From Sphaerolaimus hirsutus (taxonomy: Eukaryota > Nematoda > Chromadorea > Monhysterida > Sphaerolaimidae), in the NCBI GenBank assembly GCA_964036195.1, contig OZ038450.1, forward strand, positions 6,822,701 to 6,886,700: 64,000 nucleotides of DNA. The letters are read 5' to 3'. Of this stretch, positions 5,237 to 61,782 are shown piece after piece (the first letter of the stretch is position 1; each line of letters opens with the position of its first letter). The translations under genes were made by a program, and so were the position numbers. The notes under the pieces are model-generated. The model saw only the letters and a list, made by a program, of their open reading frames with translations. It searched no databases and was not told where the DNA came from.

Positions 5237-7339
5237 ATGGCTTCAAATCACCCTGCACGAATTCTGAGCCCGAGAAAAAAACTATTAGATAGTGGTTCAC
5301 ATCTGTTACCATGTCCACCAGAGTTTCGCCCCGGTAGGTAAATACATGTATTCACACATGTAAATTCTCAACATGTCTTGTTTTTAGATGCGCTTCCACC
5401 GACACAAGCATACGTTAGTCATTGCGAGCGTGAACAACTACTTTTAATAAGTGATGGGAATGAAATGTCTCCATGTGAGTGCATAGTAAAAATTACATTG
5501 ACTTTTCTCTACATGCGTGCAACGTCCAGCCGTTTATTGTCGCAGATGTGTTCACAACGGTGGCCTCTAGCACTGGTCTGCTAGATTTTTCATCATTGCA
5601 TCTACACCTGATGATGCGCATTCAGACAAAAGATGGACATGAAATAAAGGAAGCCTATGAGGCAAACAACATCTTTTCTAAGGAGCCCGTTGTATTAAAG
5701 GATGCTGTAGCATTTGTTCCAAATCCCCTCGAAAGTATCTGGGATGGCATTGAGATATTTCACAATTCTCTACTTTTGAGTCGAGAATCAAATTATGGAA
5801 AAAAAGCCTACATAAAGAAAATACTACAAACAAGTGGCGCCTACAGAAGAACCCAATTAGAAGCTAGCGGGTATGAAAATCAACATGTATCCTTCTAAAT
5901 GTATATCTTTATTAGTATACTATTTTATTGTTTTTCAGCTGGGTTGAAATGAAAGACTCTGAAGCTGAACTGATTGCCATGGATGCAACAGAATATTTTA
6001 AAAAAAGATCTGCACCAGTTTTTCGAAGTCAAGAATTTTATGGTCGACTAGCTTTGGACTTTGGAGAGCAGGTGACAGTTCCACAAATGGGGCATATAAA
6101 AATCATTTTGACATGTAGAATGTGAAATGAGCTTTCACCCTTTGCTTGTCAATAATAATAATAATAATTTTATACTACTCCACTTGTGAAACTATGTCCC
6201 CCCCCTCTCCAGGCGAAGCCTTGGCATGCAGGTATGCAGTTAACCATTGTACTTAGGCGAGTACCAGACAGTCTAATGTTTGAATCGTTCAGACTGCCAA
6301 GAGAATATATTGGCAAATTGAAAATACAATTTGACAATATCGAGCTGTCTGTGCGCAAAATCCACCCTGTGAGTATATATTTTAAAATATGCTTGCTCAT
6401 CTATCGTCGTGAACACGTTGACAAAAAAACAATTAGGTGACATCGTTGTCTATTGCACTGGCGGATCGCGTCAAAACACATGGCATCTACCACTCATTTC
6501 GCCAGTATAACGTGGGACAAATGAATTTGGTCGAGGGTGCGAGGGCTGCGCCGCCAATAGCCCTAGGGACGCAAGTGGGGCGCCTCCCACGTGGGATTAT
6601 AATCTGGTGACAGTCCCAAACCCTGTAAAGTGTAAAGTAAAATGTCAAATGAAATGTCAAATATAAAGTGCTATTGTCATGTAAAGTTAAGTAATAATTT
6701 TTTGTTTTAATTGACACTTTACATTTGACACTCTACTTTACACTTGGCAGTGCTTGGGATTGCCCCCAGCATGACTAAAAACAATGCTGCCAACCCACAA
6801 GCGACAAATGAGCCCCGGCACAACTATTCGCCCTTCTACATGTCCGATCTTTCTGTGCAAATAGGATCGCGACTGTACCCAAATCGTCCACTCCGCTTTC
6901 AATGGAATGCAGACAAGAGTTCAGATATTTTCCGCGAATGTTACAGCCTCTTAGAGTCGTGGAGTTCAATTCAAAATGAGCTGACAATGATAAAGTTTAC
7001 ATCATGTCATTTCTTTGTATGCATAAGCCTATGCAATGACAAGGTTACAAGGTATGTGCCACAATGTGCCTCACCTTTTTACTGGTTCCACTACAAAATT
7101 TCAACTTTTTTGTTTTTAGCAATAGTTGGGAGGCTTTGAACACTGGCGACGCATTCCTAAATTTGACCTTTGCGCGACCAATTCCTCGCGGTGGAACGAT
7201 ATTGTACACATTGCTTGTGAATGATGCGTTCTTAAGAATTGGTATGTCTATTGCCATTTTTTATTTTATTGCTTTCCTATGTGTACTTTACATTTCAGAC
7301 CCCACGAACACCATTCATACGCAGCAGGTGCATGCCTAG
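5237..7339 (+). CDS. double-jelly-roll major capsid protein, Polinton/adintovirus type, nine exons
   Basis: Exons are 5237-5333, 5388-5485, 5530-5870, 5939-6071, 6213-6368, 6437-6606, 6770-7051, 7120-7241 and 7299-7339. All have GT/AG borders, and they sum to 1440 bases, exactly 480 codons with stop. The product has the segment order of the capsid family often labelled F54H12.2-like in animal genomes: an early IQTKDG strand turn, KDAVAFVPNPLESIWDG, KKAYIKKIL, HAGMQLTIVLRR, KLKIQFDNIELSVRK, the VGRLPRGIII strand, RPLRFQWN and LNLTFARPIPRG near the end. About 480 residues is a normal length for such capsids. The frame is intact with no internal stop. Spliceosomal introns in a capsid gene are unusual. 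Exon 2 could also end at 5474, but that breaks the phase. One intron is an introner copy. Family assignment is from memory of the fold's motif order and was not searched. Confidence 0.75.
6607..6769 (+). mobile_element. introner copy forming capsid intron 6
   Basis: The 163-bp intron begins GTGACAGTCCCAAACCCTG and ends GCTTGGGATTGCCCCCAG. Its ends are imperfect inverted repeats of about 30 bp (CCCTGTAAAGTGTAAAGTA against TACTTTACACTT). The interior carries TGTCAAATG motifs. The same ends occur at 46478-46668 and 51432-51787. Confidence 0.7.
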
Positions 7340-23345: not shown

Positions 23346-23369
23346 GCCTCTGAGTAGTGGGTACCTATA

Positions 23370-23840
23370 GCAGGATTCTCTCCAACCTTCAGTTGGGTTT
23401 TGTGGTTCTCTACAATTAATACCACAAGGATTTACAAACACAAAAAGAACAGCAAAGCACAAATGTAACCAATTGAAGATTACAACAAAGTTTGACACCT
23501 TGCAAAAACCACACTATCATATCGCAAAACCTATACCACACAGAATGCACACTGCACACCATCATACCAAATCGCAAACTGTCCACATTTTACTACCGAG
23601 TTTCATGCCCAACCATTTTACAGTTAACAGTTTTACATTTTACCAACCAAGTTTACAAAAATCCATTCCAAAACATTGCATCTTTGGTATTGGTCTTGTT
23701 ATTGTTGGTACATTACATACTGCATTTCAAAACACATGCCTAGCATGTGGGCAAACTTAACTAAAGTATCATATTTTCTCCAATGGTATTAATTGTAGAG
23801 AACCACAAAACCCGACCGAAGGTCGGAGAGAATCCTGCTA
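23370..23840 (+). mobile_element. 470-bp TIR element flanked by TA
   Basis: Terminal inverted repeats of about 55 bp start GCAGGATTCTCTCC and contain GTTCTCTACAATTAATACCA. TA stands at both borders. There is no transposase. The same element is at 41444-41912 in the other orientation. Confidence 0.85.
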
Positions 23841-29392: not shown

Positions 29393-29638
29393 GACTAATT
29401 AACTAATTGGTCACTCTAATTAAGTCGTCTCGCGCGAAATTTCATTGGAAATTGTTTGTCACAGCACGAGGTTACGGTAATATGGTTTTGGACGCAAAAT
29501 CGTTAGTAACGCGTGCGTATTTACTTACGATTTTACAAGTACAAGTCACAAGTAACGAAATATTTATTTTTATTATTTTATTTCGTTCACAGCTAGCTAC
29601 CACTTTGCTAATAAGCAATAAATCGATCGAACTTTGCT

Positions 29639-30322
29639 ATGGCCGACGAACGCCTACGCGCTCTGCGAGGTGCATCCGCCGCCTCAGCTATGCCTTCGAG
29701 CAACGTAGATGAGTCCGACACAACTCATCCGTTGACTCAGCATAGGCGGGCGTTGACTGGAGTGCACACTGGCGTATTGCGATTCACAACTAAACCGATT
29801 CCTAAAATCGTCAAAGATGAGTCACAACCCGCCGCCGTAAACTTGCGCGTGGCGGAGGAAGTATTAGAACTACTTCAAGCATACGTCTACCAAGCCGAGC
29901 TGAAACGCTTGGATCTGTCCACAGCTATGGACAGATTCACATCTATTGTTCAAGATTACATCACAAGCTTGGACAGAGACCAAGACGGTGCGGCCGAAGA
30001 GGCAAAGAGCGCCAATGCAAAATTGGAACGCGCACTCTATTCAGGCTCGAACAACGCGACGATGCTCATGGATGAGCTGGAATCGAAGATGGCGTCTGCC
30101 CAAGCGCAAATCAAATCCGCGGAAAGGTTGATACTTTCCTTGAAAGGTCAGTCCACTGTTGATTTAACTACTCAACCCCCTTCACAACCACCCCTCAATG
30201 TCACCACGGGAAGTAGTTCTCAACCTTCACAACCGGAAACTTTGTTAAAGTTACCTAAAATTGAGCTTGCTAAATATAACGGCGATCCGTTAGAATGGGC
30301 AGCTTGGTGGGAAATTTTTTGA
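29639..30322 (+). CDS. BEL/Pao gag N-terminal part, cut by TGA
   Basis: ATG at 29639 opens 227 codons. The product has a helical, charged N-terminal region and ends in KLPKIELAKYNGDPLEWAAW, the start of the BEL/Pao gag-like DUF1759 domain. The TGA at 30320 interrupts that domain. The next ORF (30347) continues in the same frame, so gag and pol were one reading frame in the parent. Confidence 0.85.
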   Translation: MADERLRALRGASAASAMPSSNVDESDTTHPLTQHRRALTGVHTGVLRFTTKPIPKIVKDESQPAAVNLRVAEEVLELLQAYVYQAELKRLDLSTAMDRFTSIVQDYITSLDRDQDGAAEEAKSANAKLERALYSGSNNATMLMDELESKMASAQAQIKSAERLILSLKGQSTVDLTTQPPSQPPLNVTTGSSSQPSQPETLLKLPKIELAKYNGDPLEWAAWWEIF

Positions 30323-30346
30323 GCTCAAATTCACGACCGAACTACT

Positions 30347-33300
30347 TTGTCAAATGGTATGAAATATACGTACCTCAAGCTCAGCCTTACCGGTCCAGCA
30401 GCAGAACTGCTGGCCGGATTAAAAGGTGATGGTCGCAATTACATCACATCGGTCACCATGTTAAAATCAAACTTTGGTGAAACGCAGAGGGTACAAGCAG
30501 CCCTTTGGGATAAATTGTATTCACTCGAAAAGCCTTCGTCAAGAGGAGACTCCCTCACAAATTTCACACGAACCCTTTTGTCAACTCTCAATCAACTAAA
30601 AGAAAGGGGTGAAAGTGTCGATTCTGGTACAGTTTTAAGAATAATTCGTGGTTATCTCCCCGATAATATTGTTCTTGCCGTCACAGAAGAACACCGGAAT
30701 TTGATGCGCACTGCGGCAACCGACGACACTGAACTCACAGTCGTCAGGTTTGTTGATGCATTAACTACCATTGCTCGTGCTCGGTTAGATGCGATGAAAA
30801 CTGAACAGTCAAGTTCACAACCTTCAAATGTTGTTCAGAAATCACAAAATTCATCGTCAAAAAAACCACAAAGTGGAGGAGGTTGGCAACAGCAAAAGAA
30901 AAAGGGAAATAAATCACAAAATACTTTTTCTAAGCAAAAACCTATTCACAACACGGTTGCTTTTGCTGGTACAAATGCTAACGTTGGTAAACAACAAGGA
31001 AAAAAAAAAATTTCCACTCAACCTCCCAGAACTCCCGCGAGCGGAGCGACTAATCAAAAGCAGTTTTCACAACCTGCTGCTGATTATCGCAAGCCGAAAT
31101 TCGAGTGCTTGTTCTGTGGCATCAAAGAGCACTACACCACCGATTGCCCTCAATACGTCACACCAAAAGAGCGCATCGAACGGTTGCAAGCTTTGGGTGA
31201 AGTGTGCACACAATGCACACGCAGAGGTCATCAACCAGTGCAGTGCACTCAAAGATTGAGTTGCTACTATTGTCGCCAGATCGGTCAGCATCACGGGGCG
31301 TTCTGTCCTAACAGACCGGCACCCGGACGGCATCAGGTAAACAATTCACAAAATAAAGCCTTTGTCACAGCAACGAGCGCTAATTTTGTCAACGCTCAGG
31401 TAATCACAACGGGCGCGGCTTCGTCACAAGCGCCGCCATCGTATCCGCCTTCACACACGGAATCGATGAGCGCGCGCGTCATCCCCCCGGATGACAACGA
31501 CTTTCGGTGGGGACAGCGGACGCTGTACCAGATGGACATGGACGGCCCGCTGGACATGGGTGAATGGCCGAAGCCCGCGAATGAGCTCCAGGCGAGAGCT
31601 CAGGAGGAAGCGCGCAAGTATCACAGCGAAAACGAGCTGTGGACAACGCTCTGCGCCGGCCTCATCAAGGACGGCATGGACATAGAGACCGTTGAGGCCA
31701 AGATTCGCGGCTTCCAGCAAAAACGGTATGAGGTGTACCCACACCTCAACCCAAACCAAATGTCATCGTCGGTGCCACTTCAACCGAGTCACAGGCCCAC
31801 GGTGGAGGTACTGAGCGCACAGGTGGGTTACGGTAACCCCAACACCGCTACCAGGCAGCAGGCCGAACAAGAATGTGAGTTTGATTTTGCGCCTATTGTT
31901 CGTTTGCAAGTGGCCCAGGCTTTGTTAATTAATAAAGACGCTGAACTAAATCGAGTCACAGACCCTTTGTTAATATTCTTTGACACTGGATGCAAATATT
32001 CATACATCAAAGCATCCGTGGCAAATGAGTATAACTTTGAAAACAAAGGAGACGTTGTTCTTCAAATGAACGTGTTTGCGACAAAAACACCAGTCACAGT
32101 CAATACGTTTTTGATCGAGGCTGTCATGCCTATTTACAAACACGTCGACAATCAGGGCAATATGTTACAAATTCCGCTCACATTGTGTGCGGTCGATAAT
32201 TTGGCAACATATGCATGCCCACCTCCTTTGTCACAAGAAGACAAAACAGTCATTTACGTTGTGTACGGTAAACATGCACAAGAACAATTTGCGGAACCAC
32301 TCGAATTGACGAAAATGACTGATGAGTTTTGTCACAAACTATGTCAACCAGATGTAGTCATTGGTCAAGACTATTATTGGAAGTTCAATATTCGACCAAC
32401 AGAAGTCGAACTCCCATCTGGACTGATAGTAGTTGAATCAATACTTGGATTGATGCTTGGCGGAAATGTGTCATCACAGTCATTTGTCACAACACCTGAC
32501 ATCATGCCACATCAATTCATGGTTTCATGCTGTTCACACGCATCATCAGCTGTTGCTGTTGGTCAAGAGACACTATTTCAATTTCACAGTCTCGAGTCAA
32601 TAGGCATCACAGACGATCCATTGTCACACGATGACGATATAGCAGAACAGTTAATTCTGGAATCAATTACATTTGATCCAGAAACTGGACGCTATAGCGT
32701 AGATTGGCCATTCAAATCAACAATTCACGAATTGCCAACCAACAATGCAGAAGCATTTCGCCGCTTTCTGTCACTGTTGAAACGGTTTCGAAAAGATCCC
32801 GATTTATTCGCAACATACGCTAAAGTCATCTCCAATCAACTTCACAAGGGTGTCATAGAACCCGTCTATGGTTCACAAGACGGTTTGCAAGAACACATCT
32901 TACCACACCAATTTGTCATCACACCTGGCAGATCGACAACATGTCGAATAGTGTATGATGGTTCTCCAGGCAAGCCAAGTCTCAACAATTGCTTATTTCG
33001 AGGCCCAGTTCTCACACCACTGGTGCTCGGATTAATGCTTTGTTTCAGAGCCGGAAAAGTGGTGTTATTAGCAGATATTGAGAAAGCATTTTTGCAAATT
33101 GCTCTTCACCCAAAATCACGCGCTTTCACAAAATTTTATTGGCTGCGTGATGACACCATTCCGACTCACAAAGACAACATTCAAATGATGCAATTCACAA
33201 GGGTGCTATTTGGTCTCACATGCAGTCCATCCATTTTGTCGACTGTTATCAAATATCACCTGGAAGCGGAACTAGCTCACATGCATCCCGCTGATTCACA

Positions 33301-36300
33301 CGAACGAGCGAAATTGGAGCTGTTGCTCAACAGCATTTACGTTGATAATTTAGTTATCAGCATAGATGATGAAAAATATGCAATACAGCTCTATCGCTTA
33401 ATTAAAGCTGTTTTTGCAAGAGCAAATTTCAACATGCGCGAATGGATGACAAATTTGTGTGTTGTTTCTGAGAAAATCAAACCTGATGATCTCAACCCAA
33501 AACAGTCACAATATATCAAAGTGATGGGTCTTGTTTACGATCACATCGAAGACACCATCGCTGTGCCAGCTCCAAAGAAAGATTTCACGCTCATTGTCAC
33601 AGCAACACGCCGCAATCTGAACAAATTGCTGGCTTCAACATATGACCCTATTGGCATCACAGTGCCCGCGTTATTTCGGTTAAAATTTCGCGTGTCACAA
33701 ATAATTCAAAGGTGCAATATCACAACCTGGGACGAACTTATCGAAGATCCAGAGGCGGATGACTTACTGGACGATTTGAAACGACATCTCTCGTCCATTA
33801 GTCAAATCAAATTTCCGCGCTCATTTCACTCTTTTGGCATTGATGTCAAAGACAAAACACGTCCATTAGAGTTACATGTGTTTTGTGATGCCTCTAACGA
33901 CGGATACGCCGTTTGCGCTTATTTGCGTCAACAAGCGATTTCACCTGATGAATACGGCTATGAGGATGACCGATATTTCAGTGGTTTTCTCACAGCTCGC
34001 ACAAAATTAGCCCCACTTCCGTCAAAACAAGGTCAACCCCTCACAATCACACGCTTGGAATTGCTCGATGTCACAATCGGTGCACAGCTCATTGATTATT
34101 TACATCACGAACTCGTTGAGCTAGGTGGGTGGAAAATTCACAGCAATTTCCTATGGACCGATAGCACAGTTGTCATCGGCTGGCTATATACTTCAAAGCC
34201 GCTGGCTACTTTTGTCAACAATTGGGTCACAAAAATCTATTCATTTATGTCAAAGCACTGCATTCAAATTTGCAAAGTTGCTACAAAAGACAATCCAGCT
34301 GACATCGCGTCGCGGGGATGTACTTTTGATCAACTAATGATCGAAACAATGTGGTTCACAGGACCATCATTTTTCGCTGAACCCTTCACAGCAGACATTG
34401 TTGACATTTCGCAATATCAAGCTCAACCTGTCACCGAAGAGCTTGCGAAAGGCGACACTCACATCAGTCGACCTTTATATGCTGGTGCAGTAACTTCACA
34501 GCCTGCTTCACAGCCAGCTAATGCTCTTGCACAACAAGTGCCTGTCAATTTGGACCCCAATCTGTCACAAAATGTCACTCCTCAAAATCCGTTTGTTGAA
34601 AGTTGGCAATGTCACATCCCATCAAATCCGTTCGAAATATATATTCGACGATTTTCAACACTGTCAAAATTGTTGCGTACTGTCGTTTATTTGCTTCGTG
34701 TCAAAACATATTGGCTCAATCGCTCTATGCACAAAGCTGCAAAACGCGAAAGCGAATATTTGTCAAAACCTATCACACAAGCCGATCTAAATGAAGCATT
34801 TCGACATGTGCTGCGCATTGCACAAACTGAAGAGTGTGCCAGTTGCATTTCACAAGCGCAACTGGGCAAGCACCACATGCTCAAATGGGACGCGTGGAAT
34901 AATTTATTATATTGTGTCACGCGTGTGTCTCACAAAGAACACAGAAACCCTTCGTTGTTTTACTATCTACCAAAAACGGGGTGGTTAACAACGCTTGTGG
35001 TCACTCACTTTCATGAGCTTGCTGGTCACAGTGGCATGCTTCAAACCTTAGTGGATTTACGCGAACATTGCTGGTTGTCAAGTGCCAAGCAAGTAGTTGC
35101 GAAAATTTTGCGCAAATGCGTCACATGCCGCAAAGCGGAAGGGGGTCCATTCACATTACCTGATTTTCACACGTTACCTGTTACTCGAACTCAATCACAA
35201 ATCAAGCCATTTCAACACGTTGGCATTGATTATATGGGTCCGTTAGTTTATTCACAGAACGGTGTCCGTCACAGTCAACACATTTTGTTGCTAACATGCT
35301 TCAGTACACGCGCCATTCATTTAGAGTCAGCCAATAGTGTCTCGACAGCCGACACAATAATGGCTATAAATCGCTTCATTTCGCGTCGCGGCATGCTGGA
35401 CACAATTTGGTCCGACAATGCCCCCGCGTTCAAAAATTGTGTCAAATTACTGCCGGACGTAAAATGGCATTTTATCACAGCCAATAGTCCTTGGCAAGGC
35501 GGCGTGTACGAGCGCATGGTCGGCTTAGTCAAACGCTTGCTTAAAAAAGCATGCGGCCGACGTTGTCTCACATGGCATGAGTTTCTCACAGTCATGCTTG
35601 ACGTCGAATTCTCCGTCAACACGCGACCATTGTCATATTTGTCAAACACAGACATTGGTGCAGCGATTCTGCGCCCAATACATTTTCTTTGGGGCACCCC
35701 ACCACCATGTTACATGGATGAAAAACGTGAGTTGGAACTCGATTCCACCACGATTAAGCCCATGCGAAACATTCCAAAAGAAGAATGGGATGGGCCAACT
35801 GATGGATCTTTCAATCTCACACCTTCACAAATTGAAAAATCCTACACAGTCACACCCCCACGTGTCAATGACGTCAATTGCATTGACAAAATTGCACTCA
35901 ACTCTGTGCCTGAAAAGGACAGAGATGACATCATATTACTTTGGGACCAAATTCGTCACAACCGTGAAGTGCTCTGGTATGAGTGGTCGCGTCAGTATAT
36001 CGACCTACTCAAAGATCGAGCTAAAAATCAATGCTTGAAAAAGGGCACTATCAACGAGGCTCCGAAACGTGGCCAAGTGGTGTTAATCATTGATGATAAA
36101 CAACCACGCGGTATGTGGCAAATGGGCCGCATTCACGAGATACACGTGTCAAGCGATGGCAAAATACGTGCAGTCACAGTATTGTCAAGCAACGGCCGTC
36201 GCACACGTAGATCTCCATCTAACCTTGTGCCTCTTGAAATCGACACAGAAGACTGTGTTGAATACAAAATCGACACTGAGGTAAAAGATGATGATAAATC

Positions 36301-37252
36301 ACAACCACCACCCGACAATGGTGATGATTCACAAAAAGATCAATCACATCAACAATCACAATCTTCACAACAAGATGCAAGACGAGCAAACCCACGCCAA
36401 ACATGTCGCTACACTGGCACATATTTGTTCTGGGGAAACGTGTCGCATTTAATGGCACTCACGTTGCTAATACAGTCAAAGTTAGCTAACGCGCTCACAT
36501 GGACAGATCAATATCACAAAACTTTCAATCTGTGCCATAAAACACGCACTGGTCACGCAATTCAACTTCCGGAAAAAGTAACATGTCACTTTCCTCAAGT
36601 TACCGCCGTAGAGGATATTGTGATATCCATATGGACGTTGCGTGTTCAACCACAAATGACACCCATTTATAGATGCTTTCAACAAGAGCATACTATAGTC
36701 ACATATATGAGTCTGGTGGGCGGAAAATCTATGCTGCCACCAGAGATCATTAAAAATCACAGAGTCACAATCTACGATTGCATGATCGCCTACCAAAATA
36801 AAACTTGGAAAGGCGAACCCTTAATAAAAATCGGTCATGCATTGTGGAGCACCAACAAATCACTTCACATCGATTATTGTTACTTTTGTCACAATATGAG
36901 TAACATGGTGATGAACTTTCACATAGAAGAAGGTGTGGTTGCAAGTCTTGACGGAAAGAAAATTGTTTCCGAAATTCAAGATTTGTCACATTGCAACCCA
37001 CAAGCCGGCTATTGTTACGACAGCGACAATGGCGTCTCTTTATGGAATGCTACTGCCTTCAATAAACAGTGTGCATTCCAAGAGATTGGTCAATTTGATG
37101 CGCAATATTCACAAAATCATTATGTAGTGGAAACATTACAAGCTGCATTTTTGGTCACATGGAGATCACAACAATTTCCAAATAATGCAGAATGTGTGTG
37201 GAAAGACGCAAAATATATTGACCAAGGCTTGGCATTCATTCAATTTCTTTGA
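30347..37252 (+). CDS. BEL/Pao gag-pol polyprotein running into envelope-like region
   Basis: The open frame is 2301 codons. Residue positions are approximate. 1-140: rest of the DUF1759 gag domain. 254-267 and about 287-300: CCHC knuckles (CLFCGIKEH..., CTQCTRRGH...). About 544: aspartic protease FFDTGC. 860-1010: reverse transcriptase with LLADIEKAFLQI and YVDN at 998. About 1179: RNase H FCDASNDGYAV with WTDST and NPADIASRG. About 1550-1610: H2C2 zinc-binding domain. 1626, 1689 and 1720: integrase D, D, E in GIDYMGP, WSDNAPAF and WQGGVYERM. About 1905-1965: the DUF5641-like tail. From about 2030 the frame passes into a signal-peptide-like stretch and Cys-rich envelope-like ectodomain. The RT motif is YVDN rather than YVDD. 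The first codon in this ORF is not a biological start. Confidence 0.92.
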   Translation: MSNGMKYTYLKLSLTGPAAELLAGLKGDGRNYITSVTMLKSNFGETQRVQAALWDKLYSLEKPSSRGDSLTNFTRTLLSTLNQLKERGESVDSGTVLRIIRGYLPDNIVLAVTEEHRNLMRTAATDDTELTVVRFVDALTTIARARLDAMKTEQSSSQPSNVVQKSQNSSSKKPQSGGGWQQQKKKGNKSQNTFSKQKPIHNTVAFAGTNANVGKQQGKKKISTQPPRTPASGATNQKQFSQPAADYRKPKFECLFCGIKEHYTTDCPQYVTPKERIERLQALGEVCTQCTRRGHQPVQCTQRLSCYYCRQIGQHHGAFCPNRPAPGRHQVNNSQNKAFVTATSANFVNAQVITTGAASSQAPPSYPPSHTESMSARVIPPDDNDFRWGQRTLYQMDMDGPLDMGEWPKPANELQARAQEEARKYHSENELWTTLCAGLIKDGMDIETVEAKIRGFQQKRYEVYPHLNPNQMSSSVPLQPSHRPTVEVLSAQVGYGNPNTATRQQAEQECEFDFAPIVRLQVAQALLINKDAELNRVTDPLLIFFDTGCKYSYIKASVANEYNFENKGDVVLQMNVFATKTPVTVNTFLIEAVMPIYKHVDNQGNMLQIPLTLCAVDNLATYACPPPLSQEDKTVIYVVYGKHAQEQFAEPLELTKMTDEFCHKLCQPDVVIGQDYYWKFNIRPTEVELPSGLIVVESILGLMLGGNVSSQSFVTTPDIMPHQFMVSCCSHASSAVAVGQETLFQFHSLESIGITDDPLSHDDDIAEQLILESITFDPETGRYSVDWPFKSTIHELPTNNAEAFRRFLSLLKRFRKDPDLFATYAKVISNQLHKGVIEPVYGSQDGLQEHILPHQFVITPGRSTTCRIVYDGSPGKPSLNNCLFRGPVLTPLVLGLMLCFRAGKVVLLADIEKAFLQIALHPKSRAFTKFYWLRDDTIPTHKDNIQMMQFTRVLFGLTCSPSILSTVIKYHLEAELAHMHPADSHERAKLELLLNSIYVDNLVISIDDEKYAIQLYRLIKAVFARANFNMREWMTNLCVVSEKIKPDDLNPKQSQYIKVMGLVYDHIEDTIAVPAPKKDFTLIVTATRRNLNKLLASTYDPIGITVPALFRLKFRVSQIIQRCNITTWDELIEDPEADDLLDDLKRHLSSISQIKFPRSFHSFGIDVKDKTRPLELHVFCDASNDGYAVCAYLRQQAISPDEYGYEDDRYFSGFLTARTKLAPLPSKQGQPLTITRLELLDVTIGAQLIDYLHHELVELGGWKIHSNFLWTDSTVVIGWLYTSKPLATFVNNWVTKIYSFMSKHCIQICKVATKDNPADIASRGCTFDQLMIETMWFTGPSFFAEPFTADIVDISQYQAQPVTEELAKGDTHISRPLYAGAVTSQPASQPANALAQQVPVNLDPNLSQNVTPQNPFVESWQCHIPSNPFEIYIRRFSTLSKLLRTVVYLLRVKTYWLNRSMHKAAKRESEYLSKPITQADLNEAFRHVLRIAQTEECASCISQAQLGKHHMLKWDAWNNLLYCVTRVSHKEHRNPSLFYYLPKTGWLTTLVVTHFHELAGHSGMLQTLVDLREHCWLSSAKQVVAKILRKCVTCRKAEGGPFTLPDFHTLPVTRTQSQIKPFQHVGIDYMGPLVYSQNGVRHSQHILLLTCFSTRAIHLESANSVSTADTIMAINRFISRRGMLDTIWSDNAPAFKNCVKLLPDVKWHFITANSPWQGGVYERMVGLVKRLLKKACGRRCLTWHEFLTVMLDVEFSVNTRPLSYLSNTDIGAAILRPIHFLWGTPPPCYMDEKRELELDSTTIKPMRNIPKEEWDGPTDGSFNLTPSQIEKSYTVTPPRVNDVNCIDKIALNSVPEKDRDDIILLWDQIRHNREVLWYEWSRQYIDLLKDRAKNQCLKKGTINEAPKRGQVVLIIDDKQPRGMWQMGRIHEIHVSSDGKIRAVTVLSSNGRRTRRSPSNLVPLEIDTEDCVEYKIDTEVKDDDKSQPPPDNGDDSQKDQSHQQSQSSQQDARRANPRQTCRYTGTYLFWGNVSHLMALTLLIQSKLANALTWTDQYHKTFNLCHKTRTGHAIQLPEKVTCHFPQVTAVEDIVISIWTLRVQPQMTPIYRCFQQEHTIVTYMSLVGGKSMLPPEIIKNHRVTIYDCMIAYQNKTWKGEPLIKIGHALWSTNKSLHIDYCYFCHNMSNMVMNFHIEEGVVASLDGKKIVSEIQDLSHCNPQAGYCYDSDNGVSLWNATAFNKQCAFQEIGQFDAQYSQNHYVVETLQAAFLVTWRSQQFPNNAECVWKDAKYIDQGLAFIQFL

Positions 37253-39340
37253 TATCAACATAAGAAATTGAAAAAGCCGGAAGCCGAAAAGGCTCCTCTT
37301 CATTTCAAGCTCGCACCAAATCTCGATGTTGGTGTATTTCACTTGCTCACAGCCCGTCAACAATATGAAGTCGACAAAATTGCACGTCTCGAACAAAAAC
37401 AATTTGGATCCATCTGGCAACAATTATGTCACATCCGTCAAACCCAGCTGGATATAATTCATGCAATCGTCACATTCAATCCCACGCTTGGCTTGCGAGC
37501 ATTGCTAGGACGTCAAAATCTCTATGCTGAATGGCATGGAGATATATTGATGTTCTAGGATTGTAAACCTGTCACAGCAGAAATTATTTATTTTCAACAT
37601 CAATATAACAATACTTGTTATAAATTTCTGCCGGTCAAAGTCACAGACCACCCGCATATTATGTTTGTTGCTCCCGGTACCAATGATCTAATCACACATT
37701 CACCAATAGATCAATGTCTCATGAAAGATCACAAATATTATCAATTAAATGATCAATCATGGGCAAACAAAAATGGACCAACAAACTTGCATGTCACAAA
37801 ACTCCCAATCGAATTAATTTGGGCTGGCTCGTGGAAACCATTCACACTAAATGTTTCCGGGTCACCAGGTGTAAGCATGACTGACATTGCATTCAGTATC
37901 ATGGCTGCACATCACCACTTTCAAAATCTGCAATGACTCGAACAACAAGTCACATGTTCAGTCGATTACATTGCAACAAAATCCAACGATCCTAAAGCAG
38001 TGCAGGCGTATATTGCTGGCATCGGCCAAGATGTTGGTGCATATTTTGAAGGTGTAGGTAAAGAATTGGGTCACATCATTCATGGTAGTGTCACAGGTGG
38101 TGCGTCTGCATTAGACACGTTACTTACTGGGCCACTTCAAACAGCTGTGAACATTATACTCATTATTATCACAATTGCTTGTATTGGGTATATTGGTTAT
38201 GTTTACATGCAGTGGCGGCTCGTAACCGGCAGGGGTATGCTGCCAGACATCAAGGGCTTTTTCCGAAGAAAGGGCAGAAGGGACAAAGACCCAAACAACA
38301 GGGGCTTCCGTCCATTCAGCAAGGAAAAATCGGTAAGCGACGGCGACGTAACCGCCAGAAGAAACCGAAAAGCGGCTTCAACAAACCCGCTTTGTCAAGT
38401 CAAACCGTCACACAATCGTCAAGTTCGTCACAGTTACATTCAAAGTTTGTCACACCCCTCAAGCAAGTTTCTCCATTCAAACGGCTTTCAGGACGCTCGG
38501 TACAGCCTAGATCGGATCCCCCGGTCGGTTATAGTACCCAGCGCGCCAAAGAAATCAAGATGGAGACGGGTGCGCGCCGGGTCACAAGACCTGCACCCCC
38601 TTGCGAGTCACAAACGCAGACAAACCGGGGTCACAATCGCAAACAAACCAAACGGCAGATTCACAGTCACAGAGCCCGTCACAACAGAGGTCACAATGGA
38701 AGACGCGATCCCTGACCGCAAGCCCTTGCAAAAGCGACTCAAGAGATTTGCTGGAGTCGCAGGGCTCCCAGGTGAGCAGCAATCGTCAAACCAGACATTT
38801 TCCTCTATACCCCAAACTTTTCACAAATTCAATAACATCAATCAAAAACTGGTCAAATCAAAAGTTAAACGATCTAAAAAGATCCGTGACTTTCCTCAAA
38901 CAAACACCTTCACAGTCCAACATAGAGCTCGGAGAGATGGAAGAAAATCACGTTCAAGATCTAGATCCCCCTCCGTACCATTTGACCAATTCAACTCAAT
39001 CACTTCACAATGTACGACCTCATTCACAACCTCCCACGTCCCCTTGCTACCAAGCAAACCGCTTGCAGCAACGGAACAATGGCAGCCCAACGAGCCGTCG
39101 AAGACGAGCGTCGACAAGACCGACACGCTCCGACAAGTTCTCGAGCAGCTCGTCAAGGAATCTGAGAAGCTACCCAACTGGCCAGGTAGACCAGGAGGGG
39201 CCCCAGAAGACCAGGCGCCCGGGCAAGGGGAAGGCCGCCAGCCTGAGGAGGATGCCATCGAACCCATGGACGAGCATCATGAGGAGGGCCGGAAAAATGC
39301 CGGCGTCGAAGACGCCGACGATCTGCTACCACAGGAGTGA
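36411..39340 (+). pseudogene. envelope-like glycoprotein region, three in-frame stops
   Basis: In the pol frame, a hydrophobic LMALTLLIQSKLANA leader is followed by a Cys-rich ectodomain with spaced YRCF, YCYFCH and GYCYDS elements, then, after stops at 37250, 37556 and 37934, a transmembrane span (IILIIITIACIGYIGYVYM, about 38145-38205) and a 370-residue basic tail. Layout and cysteine spacing recall the class III-type glycoproteins (rhabdovirus/chuvirus-like) that BEL/Pao elements have captured. That relationship is from general knowledge and unverified. The tail is unusually long; two other frames are also open across it (38179-38715 and 38601-39362). The segments stay in one frame with no indel, so decay is by point mutation only. 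Confidence 0.6.
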
Positions 39341-41325: not shown

Positions 41326-41443
41326 ATAGATAACGTAAATGACAAATGCTATGGTTTGTGATCCGGGAAACGTAGAACACATGTGAAAAACAATGACTGT
41401 GTTATGATAGAACAGGGTTTATACCGTCTATGTACATATACTA

Positions 41444-41912
41444 GCAGGATTCTCTCCGACCTTCGGTCGGGTTTTGTGGTTCTCTACAATTAATACCATT
41501 GGAGAAAATATGATACTTTAGTTAAGTTTGCCCACATGCTAGGCATGTGTTTTGAAATGCAGTATGTAATGTACCAACAATAACAAGACCAATACCAAAG
41601 ATGCAATGTTTTGGAATGGATTTTTGTAAACTTGGTTGGTAAAATGTAAAACTGTTAACTGTAAAATGGTTGGGCATGAAACTCGGTAGTAAAATGTGGA
41701 CAGTTTGCGATTTGGTATGATGGTGTGCAGTGTGCATTCTGTGTGGTATAGGTTTTGTGATATGATAGTGTGGTTTTTGCAAGGTGTCAAACTTTGTTGT
41801 AATCTTCAATTGGTTACATTTGTGCTTTGCTGTTCTTTTTGTGTTTGTAAATCCTTGTGGTATTAATTGTAGAGAACCACAAAACCCAACTGAAGGTTGG
41901 AGAGAATCCTGC
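41444..41912 (-). mobile_element. TIR element, inverted copy of 23370-23840
   Basis: It has the same 55-bp inverted termini and interior, in opposite orientation, flanked by TA. It differs from the left copy by a handful of substitutions. Confidence 0.85.
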
Positions 41913-41929
41913 TATAGGTACCCACTACT

Positions 41930-46477: not shown

Positions 46478-46668
46478 GTGCCAGTCCCAAGCTCTGTAAA
46501 GTGTAAATTCAAGTGTCAAATGTCGTGACAGGTGCCGTACAAGTTTATCAACTGTCATGCAAAGTATAGCAATTTCAGTGATAAAATCTTTTATTTTTGT
46601 TTTTATTGGCATTTTAGATGACATCTGATACTTGACTTTACACTTTCAGAGGTTTGGGACTGTCCCAG
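46478..46668 (+). mobile_element. introner-family copy outside a recognised gene
   Basis: It starts GTGCCAGTCCCAAGCTCTGT and ends GAGGTTTGGGACTGTCCCAG, with CAG before it. Inverted ends match those of the capsid intron. Flanks are not recognisably coding. Confidence 0.65.
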
Positions 46669-51340: not shown

Positions 51341-51925
51341 TCACCACAGCACCAACGCAAATCGGGCACCGGTCTCGGCCTCTTTCCCACCGCCAACAGA
51401 GCCAGCCTGCAGCCTGTCGCGCCCCATTCTGGTGCCAGTCCCAGACCCTGTAAAAGACTCTGTAAAGTGTAAAAGACCCTGCAAAGTGTTACGTGTGGTG
51501 TGAAAAACCATGTCATGTCCCCTGTAAAGTGATGTGTTTCCAATTGTTATTTTATCGTATCCAAATCTAATGTTATTGTATCCAAATCTTATGTTCAAAA
51601 GTAAGAATTGGATACAAAACAGAAGATTTGTATCCGATTAAAAAAGATGTGGATACACATGGCATTTTACAGGGCATTTCGCATGACATTTGACTACACT
51701 TTACAGGGTCTTTTTCATGGCACATGACATTTTACTACGTCTTTTACACTTTACAGGATCTTTTACAGGGTCAGGGACTGCCCCCAGGTTCGGTCAGCCC
51801 GGACTCATCCGTATCCGGGGCTAGCAGCGTGGGCAATAATAGCGCCGTGCAACCGCAGCTGGCCAGCGTGCAAGAGCCGCCGTGGTTCGGTTTGCCCAGG
51901 AAGAAGTCCATCGCGGAATGTGGAG
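51341..51925 (+). CDS. two adjoining host exons, unknown Ser/Pro-rich protein
   Basis: Exon 51341-51431 (after CCCCCAG) and exon 51788-51925 (before GTGGGT) join in phase 1 to give a continuous peptide passing through VAPHSGSVSPDSSVSGAS and ending near PPWFGLPRKKSIAEC. Codon use and GC content are unlike the flanking DNA. The intron between them is an introner copy. The gene continues both ways and is not identified. The exons at about 50.0, 57.2 and 63.4 kb, on the same strand, may belong to it; that is inference. Confidence 0.55.
51432..51787 (+). mobile_element. introner copy forming a host-gene intron
   Basis: 356 bp. It starts GTGCCAGTCCCAGACCCTGT and ends CAGGGTCAGGGACTGCCCCC plus AG. 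The ends form a TIR of about 45 bp (CCCTGTAAAAGACTCTGTAA against its complement). The borders coincide with the splice sites. Confidence 0.75.
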
Positions 51926-53046: not shown

Positions 53047-53562
53047 GGAATTAGAGCTCAGCGTCGATTCGACGTGAAATGATGACGTGAAATGTCGTCG
53101 TGAAATTAATTACACGAGTGTGGATCATGCTACGGGTCTACAATTTTCCAAGGATAATATATGAATCAATACCTTAATCGTGTCCAATACTGAGTGTTAT
53201 CAGCCACAACTAGAGCGAATTGAAAAATTCAATTTTTATCATTTCACGTCATCATCATTTCACGTCACAGTGTCAGGGAACAACTTGACATTTCACGTCA
53301 GACTGCTGCTTGCAATAGTCTGACGTGAAATGTCAAGTTGTTCCCTGACACTGTGACGTGAAATGATGATGACGTGAAATGGTAAAAATTGAATTTTTCA
53401 ATTCGCTCTAGTTGTGGCTGATAACACTCAGTATTAGACACGATTAAGGTATTGATTCATATATTATCCTTAGAAAATTGTAGACCCGTAGCATGATCCA
53501 CACTCGTGTAATTAATTTCACGTCATCATTTCACGTCGAATCGACGCTGAGCTCTAATTCCG
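53047..53562. repeat. 516-bp foldback, about 250-bp arms
   Basis: Arms 53047-53304 and 53317-53562 pair almost perfectly around a 12-base loop. The word GACGTGAAAT and its complement recur many times inside the arms. Small differences (for example CAATACTGAG against CTCAGTATTAG) show some age. Confidence 0.9.
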
Positions 53563-61010: not shown

Positions 61011-61152
61011 AATCGGTGATTACGTATTCCTAGGCGGAACATTTGAACTTATACTCATTCAGTCAATTTTTTGAATGTTGATAGCTTAATTGAACGGATA
61101 TATTCCTCAAGTGTTCGGCACGCTTTATAACGAAACAAAATAAAAATGTCTG

Positions 61153-61782
61153 GTGCCACTCCCAGACCCTGCCAGATGTCAAATGTCATGCAAAGTGTCA
61201 AAAGTCATGTAAAATGTCATGGAAAATGTCAAACGTTCAATAAAAAAATACCGTATTATCTCGAAATACCCCCAGGGGGTTTATTATTTCGCCAGCAAAA
61301 TTTGAGGGGGGGATAATTCGAGGGGGGGGGGTTTATTCGAGGAGGGGGTCTATTATTTCGCCAGAAATTTTCGGAAATTCCCCATACGCAGACGTTGAAA
61401 AATCGAACAATCACATATATTTATATGTGTTCATAGGCATATATTACTGTATATACACAAAAACCCTTCCCTAACGTCACTTAATCATCAGTTTTAACGT
61501 GTGTTCTGCATTGTACAGATCACAAACTGCGGTATTTGTCATGTACGTTCACGTTACACTCAATTTTAGGGGGGGTGGTTCGAGGGGGGGTTTATTATTT
61601 CCTCAGCCGAAATTTAGGGGGGGGTATTTCGAGGGGGGGTTATTCAAGGGGGGGGGATAATTCGAGGTAATACGGTAGAATGAAATTTGACATTTTTCAG
61701 GACATTTTACACTCCTTCTAACACTTTGTATAACACCCAACGTTTTAAAGGGTATTTTAGAGGGTCTTAGTGTAACCCCCGG
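61153..61782 (+). mobile_element. decayed introner-family copy with nested MITE
   Basis: It starts GTGCCACTCCCAGACCCTG, has TGTCAAATGTCATGCAAAG words, and ends GGGTCTTAGTGTAACCCCCG, where the 3' splice AG has been lost. A C/G-tract MITE (about 61250-61677) sits inside. Confidence 0.5.
61250..61677. mobile_element. C/G-tract MITE nested in introner copy
   Basis: TACCGTATTATCTCGAAATA at the left and TAATTCGAGGTAATACGGTA at the right. Long G-runs inside. Confidence 0.75.

Follow-up and report, generated by a model that had tools for sequence, protein, structure and literature searches.

We conclude that element 1, a hairpin-forming insertion in a gene of a virus-like repeat of the nematode Sphaerolaimus hirsutus, is probably (at roughly three chances in four) one copy of a large non-autonomous family of inverted-repeat DNA transposons (MITEs) that makes spliceosomal introns, that is, an introner family. 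The element was found in a 64,000-nt stretch of contig OZ038450.1, referred to here as the window. In the window and in copies fetched from the rest of the genome, the family likeness reaches both ends of the introns, whose intron status we infer from open reading frames and homology. Members of the family have also inserted into exons, and taking them out restores the coding sequence.

According to the mechanism that we propose, the family would insert at short targets, mostly CTG or CAG, with duplication of 3 bp. The 5′ splice site would be supplied by the element itself (GTGCCAG, in element 1 GTGACAG) and the 3′ splice site by the right-hand target copy, a CAG giving AG and a CTG giving TG, so that splicing takes out the element together with one target copy and the coding sequence is back unchanged. 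The first-pass annotation had assigned both splice sites to the outermost bases of the inverted repeats; this stands for the donor, the GT at the 5′ end of the element, but the acceptor would come from the target copy, which lies outside the inverted repeat. Pairing of the two element ends in the RNA may bring donor and acceptor together, and may bury stronger-looking inner sites, a GTAAA 18 nt inside the left end and a TTTACAG 19 nt before the right end. These consensus-like inner sites, which a normal spliceosome might prefer, count against the introner reading. The use of TG may be permitted by the AG 19 nt upstream, by a second U2AF1, or by both.

The origin of new introns is a long-standing problem, and introners have rarely been found in animals. 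The survey described by Gozashti 2022 (PMC9860276) covers 3,325 genomes, reports introners in 175 of them and names two animal groups only. Like the DNA-transposon introners of that survey, the present family consists of dispersed similar copies with inverted ends and short target duplications that sit as introns, with one splice site in the element and the other from the duplicated target, leaving the length of the mRNA unchanged. It differs in having TG as well as AG right ends, and our numbers are terminal matches, not annotated introns. In the open-licence literature we found no report of this family, nor of GT-TG introners in an animal at this scale. Since plain copies, genic copies with TG ends and genic copies with AG ends occur in one genome, the birth of introns and the tuning of their splice sites become directly testable. 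The firmness of the AG rule is also put to the test, TG in human being thought unable to act alone. An annotation pipeline restricted to GT-AG introns would overlook these and fragment the genes.

Element 1 and its relatives in the window

The common ends first noticed in elements 1, 2 and 3 (Table 1) were confirmed by motif counts, by BLAST and by the inverted arms. The first-pass description of the elements was correct overall, with two corrections: element 1 starts with GTGACAGTCCC, a difference of one base at its left end, and the middle copy, element 2, has another status. Allowing up to 3 mismatches, the right-hand motif GGGACTGCCCCCAG occurred 11 times in the window versus 2.2 expected, and none of 100 shuffles reached 11. 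The left motif alone was weaker (18 versus 10.1 expected), 1 of 100 shuffles reaching 18. In BLAST, element 1 matched element 2 with an E-value of 6e-11 and element 3 with one of 5e-6. The arms of element 1 (6604-6769) are 54 nt long, 80% complementary and separated by 58 nt; those of element 3 (51429-51787) are 90 nt long and 77% complementary. Around element 1, phase 2 is open for 56 codons upstream and 122 codons downstream, and element 3 is flanked by frames open in phases 0 and 1, with no Pfam match for its host gene across 49-57 kb on the plus strand. Because element 2 lies in AT-rich DNA and no frame on its left side is open for more than 15 codons, it has the appearance of a plain copy, not of an intron.

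Table 1. Features of the window and the 14 verified insertions elsewhere in the genome
Feature	Position or locus	Strand	Basis or remark
Multi-exon gene of virus-like repeat, holding element 1	5237..7339	+	by eye; other introns look GT-AG
Left-hand target copy CTG preceding element 1	6604..6606	+	sequence
Element 1, hairpin and putative GT-AG intron of virus-like gene	6607..6769	+	inverted arms, phase-2 open frames both sides, fold z -7.8, ends = genome-wide family
Right-hand target copy CAG, final part of element 1	6767-6769	+
Element 2, copy in AT-rich DNA, target copies CAG/CAG	46478..46668	+	BLAST, frames, fold z -9.9
Left-hand target copy CTG preceding element 3	51429..51431	+	sequence
Element 3, hairpin and putative GT-AG intron in GC-rich open stretch	51432..51787	+	inverted arms, open frames, fold z -14.4; locus L033 of genome-wide search
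Right-hand target copy CAG ending element 3	51785-51787	+
Probable degraded copy, other repeats inside	61150..61782	+	left end matches elements 1 and 3; right end by eye
TG end: CNOT9	L141		E 3e-65, 120 residues gap-free
TG end: laminin beta-1	L117		E 1e-46
TG end: T-box	L074		E 5e-23
TG end: LRRK1	L088		E 2e-21
TG end: Patched	L167		E 2e-20
TG end: SLC23A1	L037		E 9e-17
TG end: trypsin	L154		E 6e-12
TG end: kinase-like	L164/L165		E 8e-7
TG end: E1 dehydrogenase	L137		E 4e-5
TG end: hydrolase	L112		E 2.5e-4, under Pfam's cut-off
AG end: AMP-binding	L044		E 2e-12
AG end: Mon2	L113		Pfam/PDB match across junction
AG end: glycogen debranching enzyme	L099		Pfam/PDB match across junction
AG end: tetraspanin	L118		Pfam/PDB match across junction

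The gene that holds element 1 had been called a capsid gene. We do not retain this name: neither Pfam nor PHROGs nor viral contigs gave a match for the pieces searched, and no Polinton or adintovirus capsid sequence was recognisable, in searches of separate exons that may miss a distant likeness. One exon may resemble the capsids of Polintons. In a protein search with a neighbouring ORF nothing scored. The gene belongs to a young multi-copy repeat. In the main match, seven other fetched copies of this repeat were 97.7-98.6% identical to the window copy (L005), and the element 1 that they carry was 100% identical in six and 99.4% identical in one. Such near-identity with element 1 inside indicates that the repeat multiplies as DNA with the element in place. 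Introner-like introns are described in viral genes of mirusviruses, including the major capsid gene, the hosts being unicellular eukaryotes and the 69 candidates being compared within viral genomes (PMC12768974); here, in contrast, one family occurs both in host genes and in an integrated virus-like repeat of an animal. Diplonemids are the subject of a further paper (PMC12621601).

The window also contains long open frames at 29615-39340 that by eye resemble a BEL/Pao-type retrotransposon polyprotein, and a near-perfect inverted repeat at 53084-53537 with 226-nt arms, 96% complementary and 2 nt apart. Another element, with 57-nt inverted ends, is present in opposite orientations at 23368-23840 and 41442-41914, beside a Gly/Pro-rich repeat frame.

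Size, ends and targets of the family

The genome searched comprised 348 Mb in 762 contigs. With up to 3 mismatches, the left terminus CTGGTGCCAGTCCCARACCCTGTAAA gave 8749 + 8776 = 17,525 matches while the reversed control gave 0, and the termini are thus present far beyond the three sites at which they were first seen. Provided that most copies have two recognisable ends, our own conversion from terminal matches gives a family of ∼8,000 to 9,000 copies.

A genome search with element 1 itself yielded 1769 candidates, among which 40 were scored. Twenty-one of these, including the window's own, also match the flanks and are copies of the virus-like repeat; all 21 carry element 1, the query having contained it, so that element-free copies could not appear. 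The other 19 lie at unrelated sites and all begin GTG. Their left/right target triplets were CTG/CTG in 4, CAG/CAG in 4, CTG/CAG in 6 and CAG/CTG in 1; the remaining four had other targets (CAT twice, ATG and CGG), both sides in agreement. Left and right triplets were therefore identical in 12 copies and unlike solely at the middle base (A versus T) in 7. CWG stood on both sides in 15 of the 19, with 8 identical pairs and 7 unlike at the middle base. Judging from these triplets, a 3-bp target, mostly CTG or CAG, is apparently duplicated on insertion. Triplets are often unequal among the loci fetched with element 1 (L009-L027) and with the left terminus (L028-L127), nearly always at the middle base (CTG versus CAG), other changes being rare, and the two sides look as if they had been set independently. 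This could have arisen if donor flank and target were mismatched and the mismatch was resolved once the element was in place. We found no support for the notion that CAG right ends arose by mutation from CTG ends and were maintained by selection, since CTG/CAG pairs occur in AT-rich flanks too.

Two sets of copies were analysed further. For the first set, all 100 listed places of the left terminus (of the 17,525) were fetched, one of them being element 3; both ends could be parsed in 82, and removal of five copies from duplicated loci left 77. The right triplet in these was CTG in 46, CAG in 25 and another in 6. The ends are asymmetric, the T of the left GT corresponding to a G at the right end in 63 of 77, in a search whose query included this T. 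An exact right end followed by CTG was found 447 times genome-wide, compared with 0 for the control. The second set consisted of 40 places fetched among 100 listed for these 447; the left end was found in 32, and 28 of the 32 start with GTGCC. Between their ends, the copies have diverged both in length and in sequence.

MITEs of the PIF/Harbinger type use CWG or TWA as target. The present family resembles them in its apparent 3-bp target duplication, mostly CWG, and in its G-rich inverted ends. The Harbinger-type domain DDE_Tnp_4 had 163 matches in the genome; the transposase genes here are known by this domain alone, and their link to the family ends is only putative. The domain is present in many near-identical copies (e.g. 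L168, C4:21011066-21011710) with two ordinary introns, which has the look of a young active family. An element-sized insert in the domain proved by eye to be these two ordinary GT-AG introns.

Restoration of host proteins and the TG boundary

When the element and one target copy were removed, 14 Pfam or PDB matches crossed the junction, ten at TG ends and four at AG ends (Table 1). Five further matches (L066, L100, L138, L150 and L153) merely touch or flank the junction. Sense peptides, which were picked by eye, matched Pfam at E 1e-3 in 14 of 27 cases, leaving 13 without a match. PDB relatives of the conserved genes have, at the protein level, no insertion at the junction. Together with the open frames, this restoration of host proteins agrees with the earlier claim that one dispersed family of inverted-repeat elements sits as putative introns in both a virus-like gene and host genes.

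The composition of the flanks points to exons as well. A mean flank GC of at least 0.5 was found in 47 of 77 copies of the first set and in 21 of 30 of the second (two duplicates dropped), compared with 24 of 138 far ends of fetched loci (versus 47/77, p 1.5e-10) and 1 of the 19 unrelated copies from the element 1 search. Among 31 unique CTG copies, at least 40 codons were open on both sides at offset 0 in 17, while offsets of -2, -1, 1 and 2 gave 9, 10, 9 and 10, respectively; the exact junction is thus favoured, although this count does not tell the two strands apart in GC-rich exons. An initial codon model had too little power, and a codon score trained on 22 loci replaced both it and the open-frame count.

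In the ten verified copies with TG ends, the boundary that restores the protein reads CTG, with no AG. These boundaries suggest that TG is used as a normal 3′ splice site. The alternative that survives best, though we consider it improbable, is that splicing occurs at other sites, be it an internal donor, an internal acceptor or an AG inside the following exon; the TG would then go unused, and small indels would be left in the proteins. All ten verified TG copies do have an AG 19 nt upstream of the right end, but combined with the three donors shared by the left ends (at 0, 6 and 18 nt) it breaks the frame. Other GTs inside the element keep the frame with this AG in all ten, at the cost of at least 14 added residues. 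In six of the ten, splicing at the first AG inside the following exon would keep the frame and cost 5 to 21 residues; in the other four this AG is out of frame. Changes of either kind would hit conserved domains, for example T-box, laminin N-terminal and CNOT9, where relatives align gap-free at the junction.

Folding also speaks for the introner reading: all of the 14 elements that were folded gave long hairpins (z -7.8 to -24.3). In 12 of them every base of the inner GTAAA is paired, and in elements 1 and 2 four-fifths of it; for the inner TTACAG, pairing is complete in 11 and two-thirds in L066, while elements 1 and 2 lack this site. In L106 the outermost bases pair locally and not end to end. 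Both kinds of right end have an AG within 28 nt upstream almost without exception (45 of 46 TG ends versus 24 of 25 AG ends), and the idea that TG ends need this AG more than AG ends do is unsupported. GC-rich flanks held 31 CTG and 13 CAG ends, AT-rich flanks 15 and 12. As GC-rich flanks show no deficit of TG ends, the host apparently tolerates them.

Several known systems depart from the AG rule. In human U2 introns, TG is described only as an alternative to AG, in tandems of up to 28 nt (Szafranski 2007, PMC2374985). The present introns are similar in that a TG lies near an AG, here 19 nt upstream, and different in that no boundary other than the TG restores the protein exactly. Two introner classes of the green alga Micromonas, IE-B and IE-D, are reported to have GT-TG splice sites, with 25 and 6 members (31 in total) (PMC3879977), compared with 447 exact TG right ends here in an animal, 10 of them in conserved host domains. 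In the tunicate Fritillaria borealis, GT-AG introns are given as <10% of the total, and a divergent second U2AF1 and a duplicated U2AF2 are described (PMC13326754). The two marine animals share a divergent second U2AF1 and a large number of introns, here putative, that break the GT-AG rule. They differ in that the ordinary introns of the present loci run by eye from GT or GC to AG, including two in a transposase copy that end in AG, and U2AF2 looks single.

Using a U2AF1 query, we found loci L169-L172. The gene on C14 (C14:3032343-3038007) has 67-74% identity and is repeated on C720, perhaps as a haplotype copy. The second gene (C16:15183255-15191469) is more divergent, with 38-72% identity, and two pieces of it match PDB U2AF small subunits at 2e-12. 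We take it not to be the minor-spliceosome relative ZRSR2. By analogy with Fritillaria borealis, our guess would be that this second U2AF1 acts on TG introns. A broader scenario, which we put forward tentatively and with some doubt, is that in hundreds to thousands of introns made by the transposon TG is routinely accepted as the 3′ splice site, the hairpin hiding the inner sites and joining the ends; that a divergent U2AF1 was recruited, transposon and splicing factor having co-evolved; and that the virus-like repeat spreads one of these introns.

Strand of the insertions

In 14 of 14 verified insertions, GT stands at the 5′ end of the coding strand. This argues for RNA splicing over excision from DNA, which predicts no strand bias. 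L099 and L118 are in the orientation opposite to that of the search, but both ends of each carry GGTG, so that their coding strands also begin CAG|GT. We therefore believe that removal of the element probably takes place in the RNA. Tested on left-out loci, the codon score gave the correct strand and phase in 21 of 22, the training loci having been picked by eye. Applied to other copies, it called 12 sense and 2 antisense (p 0.013), L099 being one of the two antisense; at stricter cuts the numbers were 8 versus 1 (p 0.039) and, at the strictest, 3 versus 1 (p 0.63).

Excision of the element from DNA in body cells, like that of the internal eliminated sequences of ciliates, would need no special splicing at TG ends; it would fit an exact removal with one target copy and the dispensability of AG. 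The strand rule makes this explanation very unlikely. The insertions were not blind to strand, neither in the 14 verified copies nor in the copies classified by codon score. Among 23 antisense peptides, only those of L099 and L118 matched Pfam, and there the coding strand is GT-first too; the antisense peptides are a weak control, because some are reverses of genes already recognised. Two possible antisense copies would speak for DNA excision. L125 may be an antisense copy without GT on the coding strand, in what by eye looks like a seven-helix membrane receptor with no Pfam match, and L140, antisense by codon score, is a possible antisense insertion without GT.

That many genic copies are recent, damaging or unfixed, or lie in dead gene copies, and are never removed, is more unlikely still: duplicated gene pairs do share an insertion (e.g. 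L135/L136 and L164/L165), but highly conserved genes such as CNOT9 remain intact to the left and right of the insertion in the stretch read, the interiors of the copies are diverged, and damage would leave the strand rule unexplained.

RNA splicing of the inserted copies remains our preferred reading. Pairs of loci with the same gene and the same insertion were seen seven times, the others being L053/L054, L057/L058, L066/L067, L080/L081 and L096/L097. They are local duplications or haplotype copies, and could help to date the insertions.
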